Origin: Ornithobacterium rhinotracheale
Lineage (GTDB): Bacteria > Bacteroidota > Bacteroidia > Flavobacteriales > Weeksellaceae
Direction: 5' to 3'
DNA length: 64,000 nt
NCBI RefSeq assembly: GCF_022832975.1
Contig: NZ_CP094846.1
Coordinates: 2,245,501-2,309,500 of the forward strand
Shown here: positions 4,701 through 57,221 of the stretch, in pieces
Layout: each line of letters starts with the position of its first letter
Position numbering within the stretch: the stretch's first letter is position 1
Program-made: the position numbers and the translations under genes
The notes under the pieces: generated by a model
The model's database searches: none
What the model was told of the DNA's origin: nothing
What the model saw: only the letters and a program-made list of their open reading frames with translations

Positions 4701-5819
4701 CACGAGCGTGTAGCGGTACGGAAGCTCAGCCGACCATTTATTAGGATTTTCTAAATTTATAGTCGCTGTGCTTATTTCAGTTTGATTTGATTTCAATTTT
4801 TGAAGTCCAGCTTGAGCTAAAACATTTGGCAATGGTTTGCTTTCGTCTGAGTACAATTTATTTTCAAATAATTTGTATTCAAGAGAATAGCCTTTAGCTG
4901 TTTTTCTATCTAAATTCCGGATTTCTGTTGAAATATTTAAGATTCCGTTTTGGTAATTTGCGTCCAAATCAGGAATTACATTCAAATCACGAATTTGCAC
5001 TTTGGGGGTAGAACGCAAAGCCACAGTTCTGAAGATTCCTGGCAAGCGGAACATATCTTGCGCCTCCAAGAAAGACCCATCTGAGTTACGATACACTTCT
5101 ACCGCAACGACATTATTTCCTTTTTTTACATAAGGCGTGATATCAAACGATGCGGTGTTTCTTGAGTTTTTAGAAAAACCTATGTATTTTCCGTTAATCC
5201 AAAGGTAGAAGAAAGAATCTACCCCATCGAAATCTATATAAATCTCTCGCCCGTCCCAATCGCTTGGAATGGTGAAATCACGACGATACGAGCCGACTTC
5301 GTTTCTATACACATAAGTGGTCCAATCCTTAGGTGGTGTACGCATTACCCCACCGCGCCAATCGTCTACAGCCACTTTGTGTTGGAAAATCACGGGCTGA
5401 TTCACATAAATCGGCACGCCATACTTGAGCGAACCATCTTTTTGCACGCCTACCATGTTCCAGTTAGACGGCACTTTGATATTATCCCAATTCGCCACAT
5501 TGTAATCTGGCTTATAGAAGTCTACTGGACGCTCGCTTGGCGTTTTTACCCAATGGAATTTCCAATCTCCGTTTAGCGATTCCCAATATTTTGAATATTG
5601 AGGTAAAACTTTTCGTGCATTATCTTCACTTGCAAACGAGAAAAAATACGCACGCGGTTGCTCCTTGTTCAAAGCGAGTTCCTCAACCGATTCCCATTCT
5701 TTGCCCGTAGGCGCATCCTTGTCGCCATAAGCAAATCCAGCCAAATCTACACGCTGCCCAAAGACAAAACTTTGTGCAAGTACGCCCAGCATAAGGCCCA
5801 TTTTTTTGTTCCAGTCCAT
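1782..5819 (-). CDS. Secreted GH2 beta-galactosidase with C-terminal F5/8C domain
   Basis: A 1345-residue LacZ-type glycoside hydrolase family 2 enzyme with an export signal (residues 1-22, cleavage near VFGQ). Domain order is GH2 sugar-binding domain (about 60-280), immunoglobulin-like domain (280-400), TIM barrel (400-720), LacZ domain 4 and small chain (720-1120), and an F5/8-type C (discoidin-like) carbohydrate-binding domain from about residue 1210. The acid/base Glu lies in WSLGNEAG (about residue 534) and the nucleophile in HISEYAHSMGN (about 597). It should release terminal beta-galactose from glycans in the periplasm or at the surface. It is far longer than E. coli LacZ. No T9SS sorting domain is visible. 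It is monocistronic with no SusC/D partner beside it. The exact galactoside substrate is not evident. Confidence 0.92.
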   Translation of the reverse strand: MDWNKKMGLMLGVLAQSFVFGQRVDLAGFAYGDKDAPTGKEWESVEELALNKEQPRAYFFSFASEDNARKVLPQYSKYWESLNGDWKFHWVKTPSERPVDFYKPDYNVANWDNIKVPSNWNMVGVQKDGSLKYGVPIYVNQPVIFQHKVAVDDWRGGVMRTPPKDWTTYVYRNEVGSYRRDFTIPSDWDGREIYIDFDGVDSFFYLWINGKYIGFSKNSRNTASFDITPYVKKGNNVVAVEVYRNSDGSFLEAQDMFRLPGIFRTVALRSTPKVQIRDLNVIPDLDANYQNGILNISTEIRNLDRKTAKGYSLEYKLFENKLYSDESKPLPNVLAQAGLQKLKSNQTEISTATINLENPNKWSAELPYRYTLVAELKDRKGKVVDMVSAHVGFRKVEIKETAAADDEFGLAGRYFYVNGKTVKFKGVNRHETNPELGHAITHEQMENEVKMMKRANINHVRNSHYPDDPYWYYLCNKYGIYLEDEANIESHEYYYGKPSLSHPKEWKNAHVGRVMEMVHAHVNHPSIVIWSLGNEAGPGKNFEYAYQGIKAFDTSRPVQYERNNDIVDMGSNQYPSIAWTYGAATGKYNIKYPFHISEYAHSMGNACGNLADYWNAIESSNFICGGAIWDWIDQAMRNYDPKTGKAYMAYGGDFGDTPNDGQFVLNGIIFADMTPKPQYFEVKKVYQNISVRKVKDASGWNKLEIFNKNYFEDLSDYQMFYQFYKDGKPEGETYQGIIDLGDVKPREKKIVDFPGKHISSFFNKNSEYFLKIQFKLNKDKPWAKKGYVQAEEQILLQKPAEKPSISQVAKGKSLKASKKGDLQIIKGDDFTAEFNLKTGALYSLNYKGQTIIEPGEGPKLDALRAFVNNDNWGYQKWFELGLHNLKHKTTATNVVKNADGTYTLYFTVESQAPNAAKIHGGTSSGHNTVEELTDRKFDDTDFKFVTNQIYTVYKDGSIELQSNISSNNPNVILPRLGYVMELPKKFDDFTYYGRGPQDNYNDRMSGAFVEIFKNKVKDEFVNFPKPQDMGNHEDVRWLALTDNQGQGAVFIPNKPMSCSALEYSAMDLIMAPHPHELPESKRVHLRIDAMVTGLGGNSCGQGAPLAKDRVYAKPYSMGFIIRPAGKDLSQIADVAPAGEMPISIARDAQGKLSIVSAAKDRKIEYSINGKKVQSYQEPFEFRDGGVIAAWYKGNKNSKVSVKFPKIEKLNLKVLNVSSQESGGGEAENMLDGDTNTIWHTMYSVTVAQYPHWIDFDLGAPQEIKGFTYLPRQNGTNGNIKDFSVSVSDDAQNWKEIAKGTFDKSSKEKKVLFEKPVKARYLRFTALNEQNGQDFASGAEFSVLGN

Positions 5820-5986
5820 ATAATTATTGTTTTATTTTCGGATTTGAGCCATAAAGATAAAAAATTAATGTTAAATCATAAATATGATTTTTAGGGCTTT
5901 TTGAGTAAATCACGCTTATACACTTACTTTTTAGACAAAAATTCAAGCAAAATCTTAATAAACAATTGTTAAATACAGTACATTTT
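5820..5986. other. Intergenic region upstream of beta-galactosidase
   Basis: An AT-rich region that should hold the leftward promoter of the GH2 gene; a near-consensus TATCTTTA lies on the minus strand. I see no other gene here. Confidence 0.4.
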
Positions 5987-6215
5987 TTAAAGGATTATCG
6001 TTTCTTTACATCATTAAATGAATGCTGTCATTAGACTGAAAAATTAGCGAAATTATGATTCTTACATTGAGCGCATCAACAACTGTATGTGTAATTTTAT
6101 GGGCGAATCGTTTTTTATCAAAATTTTAAAACTCCCTGCAGAAGAAATTGAACAATTTTTGATTTTTGTAAAGGGCCAAAAGCCGAGGGAATTGAGCGAG
6201 TTTTATCAAACCTAA
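5987..6215 (+). pseudogene. Decayed copy of the adjacent 6308-7144 gene
   Basis: Conceptual translation shows similarity to residues of about 150-245 of the intact downstream gene. One frame reads FFTSLNECCH then a stop, and after a frameshift another reads YDSYIERINN followed by FMGESFFIKILKLPAEEIE. The intact protein has LFKHLNGYYR, YEGYIKKIND and FLGDDFFVTYLKLPKNEIQ in the same order. The longest open piece (6087-6215) encodes 42 residues from an ATG. Internal stops and at least one frame change argue against function. The N-terminal half is missing. Confidence 0.75.
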
Positions 6216-6253
6216 GAGTATGCTTGGTTTTTCTAATCTTTTGAGAAATAAAG

Positions 6254-6261
6254 TACCTTTG
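6254..6261 (+). promoter_or_regulatory. -7 promoter element (TACCTTTG)
   Basis: Exact TAnnTTTG match 46 nt before the 6308 start codon. It sits downstream of the pseudogene, so the intact gene has its own promoter. Confidence 0.55.
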
Positions 6262-6307
6262 TACCTTAACCACATCAAAAATCGTGATGCGCTAAATAAA
6301 TAAACAA

Positions 6308-7144
6308 ATGCAAAAAAACATTAAAAATATATTTTTCAAATCATTTTTGGTATTGATTTTCGCACTTGTGGGAAAAGCTGTTTCGGCCCAAAATCTTTCG
6401 GGAAGTGTGGTGATAGACTTCTCGAATGCGACAGCTGATGGAATTAAGATTTTAAATCAAACTAAAAAATTATATACCACCACCGACATAACGGGGCATT
6501 TCACAATCTCGGCATCGGTAAACGATACGGTGATTTTCAGTGGTTCGTTCCTCGAAACGCGTAAATTCATTGTTACAGAATCTGCATTGAACAATCCTCA
6601 TTTTGCAATTCACTTAAACACCGAAAATATCAAATTAGCGGATTTGGTGGTGCGCCCAAAACTTACGGGCTTTATAGATAAAGATGTGGCTACGGTGCCC
6701 AACGATAAACGCAAGGAGAACTTATACAAAAGTCTCGGAATCGACATCAAAGTACTAGACATAAAATACGAAGAGAATAAAGATCCTATCTTAAAAAATA
6801 TAACTACGCTTGATGTAATATCTTTGTTCAAACACCTCAACGGATACTATCGCAAACTTGAGAGTTTAAGAAAATATGAGGGATACATTAAAAAAATCAA
6901 TGATGTTAGAGAATTTTTAGGAGATGACTTCTTTGTAACTTATTTAAAATTACCGAAAAACGAAATTCAGAGCTTTTTGATCTTTGCACAATATAGAAAC
7001 CAAGCAGCTTATGAACAAGCCTTTCAAACTAAAAGCTATCTAGCAATGTCTTCACTTCTGCAAAAAGAATTGCCTATCTATTTAAAAAGAATTGAAGAAC
7101 GCGACAAACAAAATCCTAATAGCGCGAAGAATCAAAAGGATTAG
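6308..7144 (+). CDS. Exported carboxypeptidase-regulatory-like domain protein
   Basis: A 278-residue protein with an N-terminal signal peptide ending near VSAQ (residue 28). The N-terminal part of the mature protein (about 30-110) looks like a carboxypeptidase-D regulatory-like beta-sandwich: a SGSVVIDFSNATADGIKI strand pair is followed by TDITGHFTISA. The C-terminal 150 residues are helical and charged. Proteins of this layout are common and uncharacterised in Flavobacteriia. The 3' end overlaps the convergent PorP/SprF gene by 29 bp. A decayed copy of the C-terminal half lies directly upstream, so this locus once held a tandem pair. The function is unknown. Confidence 0.8.
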   Translation: MQKNIKNIFFKSFLVLIFALVGKAVSAQNLSGSVVIDFSNATADGIKILNQTKKLYTTTDITGHFTISASVNDTVIFSGSFLETRKFIVTESALNNPHFAIHLNTENIKLADLVVRPKLTGFIDKDVATVPNDKRKENLYKSLGIDIKVLDIKYEENKDPILKNITTLDVISLFKHLNGYYRKLESLRKYEGYIKKINDVREFLGDDFFVTYLKLPKNEIQSFLIFAQYRNQAAYEQAFQTKSYLAMSSLLQKELPIYLKRIEERDKQNPNSAKNQKD

Positions 7145-11112: not shown

Positions 11113-11307
11113 TTATTTTTGATTAAGCTTAACTTTTGCCCAATCAAAAAGAATGGATAAAAATACACAAAACACGGCAAAAATAAATGCCCAATACATT
11201 ATGTACACAATATCCGCATCGAACTTTGAAACGGCGTATTTTACCAATGTGACTCCCACAAAAAAAACGACAAATTCTAAAATATATTTTTTGATGTTTT
11301 TTTTCAT
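11113..11307 (-). CDS. Tiny two-helix membrane protein
   Basis: A 64-residue protein with two hydrophobic segments (about 10-27 and 32-53) and a basic C-terminus ending FDWAKVKLNQK. It shares that ending with the next upstream gene, both in protein and in a 26-nt exact DNA repeat, so the two are duplicates. It is the last member of a row of four small membrane genes read leftward. No family is recognised. The function is unknown. Confidence 0.6.
   Translation of the reverse strand: MKKNIKKYILEFVVFFVGVTLVKYAVSKFDADIVYIMYWAFIFAVFCVFLSILFDWAKVKLNQK
11125..11150. repeat. 26-nt direct repeat, copy 1 (copy 2 at 11376-11401)
   Basis: An exact 26-nt match between the 3' ends of the two neighbouring tiny membrane genes. 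It encodes the shared DWAKVKL tail and indicates duplication. Confidence 0.8.
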
Positions 11308-11363
11308 ATCATTTAATTTTGGATTGTTCTTTTTTCAAAAATATATCAATTTCTATTTTTTTC

Positions 11364-11546
11364 TTAGCTTTTACCAAGCTTAACTTTTGCCCAATCAAAA
11401 ATAAAAATAGCGATGACAAATACTGCTGAATATTTTAAAGCGTAAATAAAAACATCTACCAAATCTTCTCTAAACATAGAAATTGCATAATCAATAATTG
11501 CCAAAACGATAAAATATTGTAGAAATATTTTTAAATATTTATTCAT
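11364..11546 (-). CDS. Tiny two-helix membrane protein, paralogue
   Basis: A 60-residue protein (MNKYLKIFLQYFIVLAII...) with two hydrophobic helices and the tail FDWAKVKLGKS. The open frame extends to 11669 but would overlap the upstream gene, so the ATG at 11546 is preferred. It is a paralogue of the 11113-11307 product. The function is unknown. Confidence 0.6.
   Translation of the reverse strand: MNKYLKIFLQYFIVLAIIDYAISMFREDLVDVFIYALKYSAVFVIAIFIFDWAKVKLGKS
11376..11401. repeat. 26-nt direct repeat, copy 2
   Basis: Exact copy of 11125-11150, at the same place within the paralogous gene. Confidence 0.8.
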
Positions 11547-44060: not shown

Positions 44061-44104
44061 AATCCGTTCAGTCTGGGTTTTTAGAAACCCAGACTGAACG
44101 GATT
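44061..44104. terminator. Long bidirectional terminator between yebC and DUF3078 gene
   Basis: A perfect 20-bp stem (44061-44080 / 44085-44104) around TTAG, flanked by T-rich tracts on both sides, between convergent genes. Confidence 0.88.
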
Positions 44105-44170
44105 TTATTTGGCGTTTATCTTTCTTTTATTCTAAAAAAGAAAAAATATGATTTTTGGATATTTTTTTAG

Positions 44171-55451: not shown

Positions 55452-55949
55452 ATGAGTAAAAATGATTTAATCAGCTTAGAATTTTCTACCGAAGATTTAA
55501 AGAAAATTGACGATGCGCTCAAAACCATTGGCGAGGTTTTGAAAGGCAAAACCCGCAATCTTACGCCCGAAGAACGCAAACAATTTGGGCGTATTGCCGA
55601 GCAAAATAAACTTTTTGTAGAGAAATCTAAAAGCCTTATGGAGCAGTTTCCGCAGTATATACCCGTGTTTATGGACAAAGCGGAGTTTGACAAAGATTTT
55701 GCCGCACGCAAAGCCATAGAAAACCGCCTGCAACTGCTTGATAACTTGACCGAGCAACTCTCAGACACCAAAATCTTGCTCGATAATGACAACTACACCG
55801 CAGCACTCACATTCTACCGAAACATTCGCTACCTAAGCAAAGAAGATGTGCCAGGCACCACGAGCATTGCCAAAGATTTAGGGCAATTTTTCCCCCGTTC
55901 ACGCAAAAGAAACGCTACCGAAACAGAAGATACAGCTACCGATAGCTAA
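55452..55949 (+). CDS. Hypothetical helical protein
   Basis: A 165-residue soluble protein with no signal peptide. It is predicted to be mostly helical; the region about 15-130 has heptad-like spacing of hydrophobic residues, and the C-terminal 25 residues are charged and low-complexity (RSRKRNATETEDTATDS). I recognise no family. It has only an AT-rich upstream region of 95 bp after polA. The function is unknown. Confidence 0.7.
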   Translation: MSKNDLISLEFSTEDLKKIDDALKTIGEVLKGKTRNLTPEERKQFGRIAEQNKLFVEKSKSLMEQFPQYIPVFMDKAEFDKDFAARKAIENRLQLLDNLTEQLSDTKILLDNDNYTAALTFYRNIRYLSKEDVPGTTSIAKDLGQFFPRSRKRNATETEDTATDS

Positions 55950-55978
55950 TTTTTGCCCGTTGAACTCAAGTTTTTAAG

Positions 55979-56132
55979 TAAAGAAGAGAAGTTTTTGATT
56001 AAATCAGAGAAAATTTTAGGCTCAAAAGCCATTTTTTTCGATTGAACGCCTAAAAATTTCGATAGCTCAGCCAAATTTTTCGATACTAAGGCTAAAAATT
56101 CCGATACCATAAGCAAAAACTTCTCTTCTTTA
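55979..56132. repeat. 19-bp inverted repeat enclosing four ~21-nt direct repeats
   Basis: A 19-nt segment at 55979-55997 is found as its exact complement at 56114-56132. Between them are four imperfect direct repeats of about 21 nt starting at 56028, 56048, 56070 and 56091, each of the form GCC(A/T)AAAA-TTTCGAT plus a variable end. Read on the minus strand they give a heptad series (SEFLALV, SKNLAEL, SKFLGVQ, SKKMAFE) within an 88-codon open frame. I do not call that frame a gene. Confidence 0.75.
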
Positions 56133-56165
56133 ATGAAATTTATTAACAGCTCCATTAAAAATAAT

Positions 56166-57221
56166 ATGAAAAAACTGATTTTATTACTTATTTTAATCGT
56201 TTCTTGCACCATTAATGCTCAATCTTTAGAAACTTGCACAAATTATTACAGCAATAGAGAATACAAAAAAGCCTTTGAATGCTTTAAGCCACATGCCGAG
56301 CAAGGAGATGCCCAAGCACAATTTAATTTAGGCTATATGTACAGCAACGGAGAGGGCGTAAAACAAGACATCCATAAAGCCTTTGAGTGGTATCAAAAAG
56401 TTACCAAACAAGAATATGCCAAAGCGCAATATAATTTAGGCTCAATGTACTTAAAAGGAAACGGTGTAAGACAAGATTACCACAAAGCCTTTGAGTGGTT
56501 TCAAAAAGCGGCTGAGCAAGGATTTGCCAAAGCACAATTTAATTTAGGCTTAATGTACGACAAAGGAGAGGGCATAAAACAAGATTACCACAAAGCCTTT
56601 GAGTGGTATCAAAAAGCTGCCGAGCAAGGAGATGCCCAAGCACAATTTAATTTAGGCTATATGTACGAGAACGGAGAGGGCGTAAAACAAGATTACTACA
56701 AGGCCTTTGAGTGGTATCAAAAAGCTGCCGAGCAAGGATTTGCCAAAGCGCAATTTAATTTAGGCATAATGTACTTAAAAGGAAACGGCGTAAAACAAGA
56801 TTACCACAAAGCCTTTGAGTGGTATCAAAAAGCGGCTAAGCAAGGACATGCCGAAGCGCAAACTGCTTTAGGCATAATGTACGACAACGGAGAGGGCGTA
56901 AGACAAGATTACCACAAAGCTATTGAGTGGTATCAAAAAGCTGCCGAGCAAGGAATTGCCCAAGCGCAAATTAATTTAGGCTATATGTACGAGAACGGAG
57001 AGGGCGTAAAACAAGATTACCACAAAGCCTTTGAGTGGTATCAAAAAGCTGCCGAGCAAGGAATTGCCCAAGCGCAATTTAATTTAGGCTATATGTACGA
57101 GAACGGAGAGGGCGTAAAACAAGATTACCACAAGGCCAAAGAATATTTTGGTAAAGCTTGCGATAATGGATATCAAAACGGCTGCGATTTATACCGAAAA
57201 TTAAACGAAAAAGGGGATTAA
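56166..57221 (+). CDS. Sel1-repeat exported protein
   Basis: A 351-residue protein. Its N-terminal signal (MKKLILLLILIVSC TINAQ) could be a normal signal peptide or a lipobox (IVSC). Eight 36-residue Sel1-like repeats run from about residue 42 to 329 (consensus KAAEQGxAxAQFNLGxMYxxGEGVKQDYHKAFEWYQ, shown here as a consensus in segments), followed by a partial ninth. Sel1 repeats form helix-turn-helix stacks that mediate protein contacts. The ATG at 56166 is chosen because an earlier one at 56133 lies inside the inverted repeat and adds residues before the signal. A terminator follows. Confidence 0.9.
   Translation: MKKLILLLILIVSCTINAQSLETCTNYYSNREYKKAFECFKPHAEQGDAQAQFNLGYMYSNGEGVKQDIHKAFEWYQKVTKQEYAKAQYNLGSMYLKGNGVRQDYHKAFEWFQKAAEQGFAKAQFNLGLMYDKGEGIKQDYHKAFEWYQKAAEQGDAQAQFNLGYMYENGEGVKQDYYKAFEWYQKAAEQGFAKAQFNLGIMYLKGNGVKQDYHKAFEWYQKAAKQGHAEAQTALGIMYDNGEGVRQDYHKAIEWYQKAAEQGIAQAQINLGYMYENGEGVKQDYHKAFEWYQKAAEQGIAQAQFNLGYMYENGEGVKQDYHKAKEYFGKACDNGYQNGCDLYRKLNEKGD
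56289..57152 (+). repeat. Eight tandem 108-bp repeats (Sel1 array)
   Basis: Eight in-frame 108-bp units code for the Sel1 repeats. Several neighbours are nearly identical at the DNA level (for example the units around 56600, 56940 and 57050), so copy number could change by slippage or recombination. Confidence 0.85.

Follow-up and report, generated by a model that had tools for sequence, protein, structure and literature searches.

Introduction

Arrays of short, regularly spaced DNA sites that work together with an initiator protein are known from plasmids, among them the iteron arrays P1 incA and F incC, and the spacing of plasmid iterons lies near two helical turns. Systems in which partition relies on a single protein have also been described, such as StbA and pSK1 Par. 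An iteron array with its initiator is represented on a chromid by ori2-inc and RctB of Vibrio cholerae (PMC6090056), and partition with centromere arrays is carried out by the three-part Par systems (PMC7762940). A different kind of repeated site is found in the REP/BIME elements associated with RAYT transposases, for which 37 to 427 perfect copies per genome are given in the Stenotrophomonas cases (PMC2817692).

This report deals with a locus of Ornithobacterium rhinotracheale situated in a stretch of 64,000 nucleotides, here called the window, and with its counterparts in related bacteria. The locus belongs to a two-part chromosomal module of Bacteroidota composed of the gene of a small all-helical protein and, 3' of it, an array of sites placed two helical turns apart. 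No account of the gene-array pairing was found in the open-access literature, and the family has no name in the databases searched.

As in iteron systems, an array of short sites, in some cases 3' of the gene, lies near a small-protein gene, the sites beside the gene are phased at about two helical turns (here by a lag test and pooled peaks), and additional sites occur elsewhere, those of iteron systems titrating the protein. Unlike iteron replicons, the 165-aa family has no Rep initiator match in Pfam, NCBIfam or PHROGs, the arrays are chromosomal, the gene was not found in plasmid records, and the units are often palindromic, with a sequence that shifts between close relatives. The locus resembles the Par centromere arrays in that phased sites stand next to the gene of their cognate protein and that systems of several specificities can coexist; however, no linked motor NTPase as in the three-part systems was seen, no cluster of neighbors is common to more than 23 of 195 loci (judged by eye), the 165-aa protein falls outside the known centromere-binding families, and the array is chromosomal and 3' of the gene. 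REP/RAYT systems resemble it in having extragenic palindromes of alternating orientation that are linked to a gene, coevolve with it and have dispersed copies. They differ in that the adjacent gene here carries no transposase domain (25 members, Pfam), that each genome holds a handful of arrays (two plus a weak third, about seven and about five by the sequence-only model R1), and that the tandem period is a strict 21-22 bp with the array on one side of the gene only. In a reading by eye, the GT(A/G)G head of REP did not stand out as a constant part of the unit consensuses. Compared with MITEs, no constant ends were seen among the array copies. In contrast to CRISPR, the whole 21-bp period is repeat-like, there are no spacers, and the Pfam matches of the 165-aa family include no cas gene. 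The module is thus not a REP/RAYT system, an iteron replicon, a three-part Par system or a CRISPR locus.

The Array and Its Neighboring Genes

The gene of the 165-aa protein (P0001) is an open reading frame on the plus strand at 55452-55949, directly 5' of the array. The latter, to which no strand is assigned, occupies 55941-56150 with about ten 21-bp units of core AAAANTTTT whose rows stand in register; its start may be put at about 55941 or at 55962 and its end at 56150, giving 9-10 imperfect units in an exact 21-nt register, and its first row already overlaps the gene's stop codon. The four repeats of about 21 nt reported in the first-pass annotation are therefore real and in register, but their number was set too low. 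A repeat search detected these units as one 42-nt pair, 74% alike, and the flank that holds the array (L090) reaches a self-similarity z of 11.7 at lag 21/42.

The perfect 19-bp inverted repeat from which the same annotation started was confirmed, with its left arm at 55979-55997 (plus strand) matching exactly the right arm at 56114-56132 (minus strand). Perfect inverted repeats of at least 15 bp with a gap of at most 160 bp were absent from 20 dinucleotide shuffles of the 64-kb window, compared with 15 perfect 15-mer inverted pairs in the real sequence; at 19 bp the window contains this pair and one at 44061-44086, and no others. The orientation of the units flips along the array, so the 19-bp inverted repeat corresponds to two units standing face to face near the array ends. 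The other perfect inverted repeat, of at least 19 bp and with a short loop, lies at 44061-44105, and two AT-rich 41-nt copies, 85% alike, 251 bp apart and containing TTTTTGATTAAG / CCAATCAAAAA, occur at 11113-11404.

On the 3' side of the array a Sel1-repeat gene, also an open reading frame on the plus strand, spans 56133-57221, although its start may be a later ATG near 56168. It is regarded as a neighbor outside the module. Its 108-nt repeat units (56258-57205) align to the congener G001 with gaps of 108 columns, hence the number of Sel1 units varies among congeners.

The Protein Family

Reading of the flanks placed several arrays just 3' of members of one protein family, namely P0001, a second copy in the congeners G001 and G002, and homologs in two other genera. 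Within the taxonomic family a protein profile detected homologs in 57 of 148 genomes; across the phylum it did so in 25 of 296, five of which are from the window's family. A pattern scan with one genome per species gave 357 relatives; the best 80, which were retained, belong mostly to Flavobacteriales (Riemerella, Chryseobacterium, Capnocytophaga, Aquimarina, Kordia and others), a few being labeled Bacteroidia only.

Neither Pfam (25 members, and also 5 members) nor NCBIfam (5 members) gave a match above the curated cut-off, and among the Pfam matches there was no transposase family and no cas gene. PHROGs and PADLOC provided no match worth naming, and the weak matches to these four collections are scattered over the members and lie below the cut-off where one exists. 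In IMG/VR contigs, 134 pattern matches included no relative, and no homolog was found in plasmids or phages, the P0001 query returning none from 72,556 plasmid records, a search that distant members would escape.

The AlphaFold2 model of P0001, built with 61 sequences, has a mean pLDDT of 86.4 (mostly above 90 in the core) and predicts four helices, one of them of 55 residues (76-130), with a disordered tail from residue 152. Foldseek found no match in the PDB at E<=0.001; the best VIA-align Z was 3.6 over 63 residues, which speaks for neither kinship nor novelty, and a profile search of PDB sequences gave a best E of 0.005 to a short stretch of IFT70. The conserved residues, which include R42, E78, D82, R86, D113, Y115 and Y122 (P0001 numbering), combine acidic and basic side chains and contain no known DNA-binding motif. 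The last 25 residues have a mean net charge of +1.1 in proteins with exact 21-bp arrays (n=103) vs -0.16 in the others (n=69), a link between a basic C-terminal tail and exact arrays that carries little weight since kinship is uncorrected.

Statistical Link Between Gene and Array

Homologous open reading frames amounted to 205 hits (97 + 81 + 27), and 172 of them passed a filter that required no fewer than 120 residues, 450 nt of sequence on the 3' side and a flank not identical to another. The top self-similarity lag (lags 8-60) was 21, 22, 42 or 43 in 142 of the 172 3' flanks, compared with 21 of 167 in the 300 nt upstream; the 30 flanks that had no such top lag include many Chryseobacterium-like ones. 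Under a stricter score, in which lags 21 and 42 were set against 100 dinucleotide shuffles (60 for the upstream control), z>4 was reached by 103 of 172 3' flanks vs 5 of 167 upstream ones, kinship being uncorrected beyond the dropping of identical flanks. The 3' flanks of other long open reading frames in the same loci reached z>4 in 10 of 144 cases, one of which is another array. Among the coded genomes, 25 of 29 genera hold at least one flank at z>4, as do 14 of 14 in the window's family. The five seed proteins had been picked for their adjoining arrays, so a handful of flanks is not independent. Over the 103 arrays the length ranges from about 4 to 29 units.

The neighboring genes, judged by eye and in part annotated, are not conserved overall. 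The identity of the next gene varies between genomes, and in 50 of 149 loci that gene is encoded on the opposite strand. A small helix-turn-helix-like protein is encoded upstream, mostly divergently, in 23 of 195 loci (L105, L109-L111, L182-L184 and others), which are mostly Chryseobacterium-like, and another upstream neighbor is common to 19 loci, mostly Aquimarina-like. At L100, L101, L107, L197 and L214 a protein resembling, by eye, an IS200-type or REP-associated transposase is encoded downstream of the family gene, and the arrays there are weak with a period of about 21.6 bp.

Nature of the Repeated Units

Pooled over the 103 strong flanks (z>4), self-similarity peaks at 21, 42, 63, 84 and 105, with side lobes mainly at +1; over the 69 flanks with z<=4 the peaks fall at 22, 43, 65, 86-87 and 108, and minor half-steps are seen near 33 and 53. 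The latter series implies a period near 21.6 bp. The 21-22-bp spacing is that of two helical turns and is not bound to codons. Tested against permuted columns, 53 of the 92 strong arrays (z>5) have a palindromic unit at p<0.01, and the remaining 39 do not at that level. Phased A-tract bending was tried as the common factor; although the units of the window would suit curved DNA, those of other lineages are GC-rich (L271), so that curvature cannot be the factor shared by the arrays.

The first-pass annotation saw the 21-nt unit as matching the codon heptad of a minus-strand frame and named the remnant of a coiled-coil gene among its readings. In the window the minus frame is indeed open through the whole array and yields xSKFLxx heptads, but most sister arrays contain stops. 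A heptad coding gene, in which AAAANTTTT units would give xSKFLxx or xPKNLxx (both strands), was discarded on two grounds, namely that over 92 arrays (z>5) the fully open frames number 0.63 per array vs 0.65 in a control that reshuffles the 21 columns but retains the period, and are spread evenly across all six frames, and that one group of arrays has a period of about 21.6 bp; a coding origin is accordingly hardly credible. The miniature mobile element proposed by the same annotation, whose ends the 19-bp inverted repeats would be, accounts for the presence of the repeat and for related copies dispersed in the genome, but the arms are ordinary units, which the arrays have in common and in register, no shared ends were seen, and the number of units differs from array to array (about 4 to 29, n=103). 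The order polA-gene-array is moreover common to G001 and, insertion apart, to G002, no homolog of the gene was found in viral contigs, plasmids or phages, and one gene family accompanies the arrays across the phylum, which makes a mobile element very improbable.

The palindromic units would also suit an array that works as RNA, i.e., a row of hairpins made from its own promoter or by read-through and bound or processed by the adjacent protein, as a decoy or as an RNA antidote of the kind found in type III toxin-antitoxin loci. The window array region does fold better than its shuffles (z -3.9 and -5.1 for the two strands), and G-T mismatches within the palindromes slightly exceed A-C ones (429 vs 338); a G-T/A-C ratio of 1.07 is, however, expected from composition alone, and most mismatches are of other kinds (1260), so that the outcome is close to neutral and gives no hint of selection for RNA pairing. 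A terminator-like hairpin lies within 110 nt past the stop codon in 44 of 92 arrays, compared with 3.6% in shuffles, so that in about half of the cases the array is probably outside the transcript of the gene. Rfam gave nothing at gathering score for 10 loci, with two chance-level matches in the window, and a fixed helical spacing has no obvious reason in an RNA; an RNA function is quite unlikely on these grounds. The strong hairpin of the window, the position of the array between two genes and the lack of any separately listed terminator-like site between the stop codon of the 165-aa gene and the Sel1 gene are what a local regulatory or insulating DNA element would offer, be it an operator array for its own or the next gene, or a terminator. 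Against this, the array is 3' of the gene and often past a terminator, the next gene varies and lies on the opposite strand in a third of the loci mentioned above, and a terminator needs no 4-29 phased units; a local element is considered unlikely, if deserving of some attention. For the hairpin over the Sel1 leader that had been suggested initially, the good folding in the window holds, but neighbors elsewhere are not conserved and there is no clear G-U preference.

The reading favored here, with a probability of about 0.55, is that the array consists of dyad-symmetric DNA sites in helical phase to which the adjacent protein binds. In its favor are the linkage of gene and array, the period, the palindromic units of most strong arrays, the missing coding signal, the terminator-like hairpin ahead of 44 of 92 arrays, the change of the unit along with the protein, and the orphan arrays described below. 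Weighing against it are the 30 flanks that lack the characteristic lag, the 39 strong arrays whose unit is not palindromic at p<0.01, the residue mix of the protein with its lack of a known DNA-binding motif, and the absence of a Foldseek match in the PDB at E<=0.001.

Unit Sequence and Protein Lineage

The sequence of the unit is unlike between lineages, being AAAANTTTT in the window and TTGAGGTTCCTAACCTCATTT, GAGTCTAAAAGACTC or TTCGGAAGGTACCCGGGTAGG elsewhere. In 60 gene-array pairs, the mean array similarity rises from 0.32 where protein identity is below 30% to 0.89 where it exceeds 90%. The same trend of array similarity with protein identity is found in 23 pairs of paralogs from the same genome, which indicates that the arrays belong to the protein lineage and not to the genome. 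As judged from sequence comparison, this tracking of the protein by the unit is consistent with cognate recognition but is no proof of it, since common inheritance alone would also yield it.

Copies in the Genus and Arrays Without the Gene

A search for further copies had been proposed in the first-pass annotation, with uniqueness in the genome, together with lack of conservation and of a transcript, as the outcome speaking against the element. The array is not unique: a second one lies in the same genome at G000:C1:331765-332025, and more were found in two congeners. Model R1, which was built from six units and whose strict filters weak arrays may escape, gave the counts cited in the Introduction for the window's genome (G000), G001 and G002, respectively, the weak third match of G000 being at C1:1963791-1963889; the two G000 arrays sit on a 2.4-Mb contig. 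Some arrays contain twenty or more units. In the congener G003 the model detected no array, and no homolog of the 165-aa gene was found there either.

The array at C1:331765 is an orphan, i.e., it stands without the gene, and is common to three species of the window's genus, with one additional unit and a 2-bp difference in G002. In another genus (g27), one array type adjoins the gene and has one further copy elsewhere in G162, G159 and G073, and in G107 it occurs only at a site without the gene. When 12 orphan loci, four from g27 and eight others, were searched by profile, no gene of the family or fragment of one was found, and the same search recovered two of two gene-linked control loci. 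The orphans of G159 and G162 lie between the same genes, and their arrays differ by substitutions, one whole-unit gap and small edge changes.

The order polA-gene-array is shared by G000 and G001, and also by G002 apart from an insertion after polA. In G002 (C1:675100-676160, L311), the last ~150 bp of polA are repeated ~0.7 kb downstream, just before the 165-aa gene, a duplication of the polA 3' end that looks as if an insertion had taken place there. Transplantation of the module in G002 was considered and dropped, the locus being the same polA locus behind an insertion. A stretch of low divergence surrounds both arrays in the comparison of G000 with G001 and may reflect selection or recombination; no inference is drawn from it, because divergence is patchy along both loci and the orphan array of G159/G162 is no more conserved than its own flanks.

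At L071 (G001:C1:1528300-1536800), an orphan array at ~2140-2601 is followed by a second copy of the gene with its array at 5745-6490, and the open reading frames between the orphan array and this gene copy resemble, by eye, Rhs/YD toxin tails and small immunity-like proteins. Model matches at L069 (G001) and L086 (G034) lie just upstream of what seems by eye to be the same carboxylase gene (MDLNFNKRED / MDLEFNKRED), although the two loci belong to different genera.

Proposed Mechanism and Biological Meaning

With units every 21-22 bp, i.e., every two turns, the sites all point to the same face of the DNA. If the array is indeed read by its neighbor, the 165-aa protein, which probably forms dimers or oligomers by way of its 55-residue helix, would bind its own array cooperatively, either directly or with a partner, and form a nucleoprotein patch on that face. 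Orphan arrays would also be bound, in trans, forming patches of the same kind. Such a patch might act like a centromere or an incompatibility iteron array, by pairing or anchoring DNA or by titrating the protein, and each paralog might have its own site sequence; these last two steps are the least certain. By analogy, the layout and the presence of several unlike pairs in one genome appear most like centromeres or incompatibility iterons. It is conceivable, though the odds are well against it, that the modules are single-protein, chromosome-borne centromere- or handcuffing-like systems in which each paralog reads its own palindrome array, several of them operating orthogonally on one chromosome.

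The pairing of gene and array is kept across the phylum, and the sequence of the sites changes fast as the two-turn spacing stays fixed, a combination indicative of a nucleoprotein machine that has been conserved. Intergenic repeats of these genomes that would otherwise pass for lost coiled-coil genes or mobile scraps are accounted for as well. If the protein reads the array, the natural protein-array pairs would constitute a ready set in which to study the evolution of DNA specificity and may be a source of orthogonal DNA-tethering tools.
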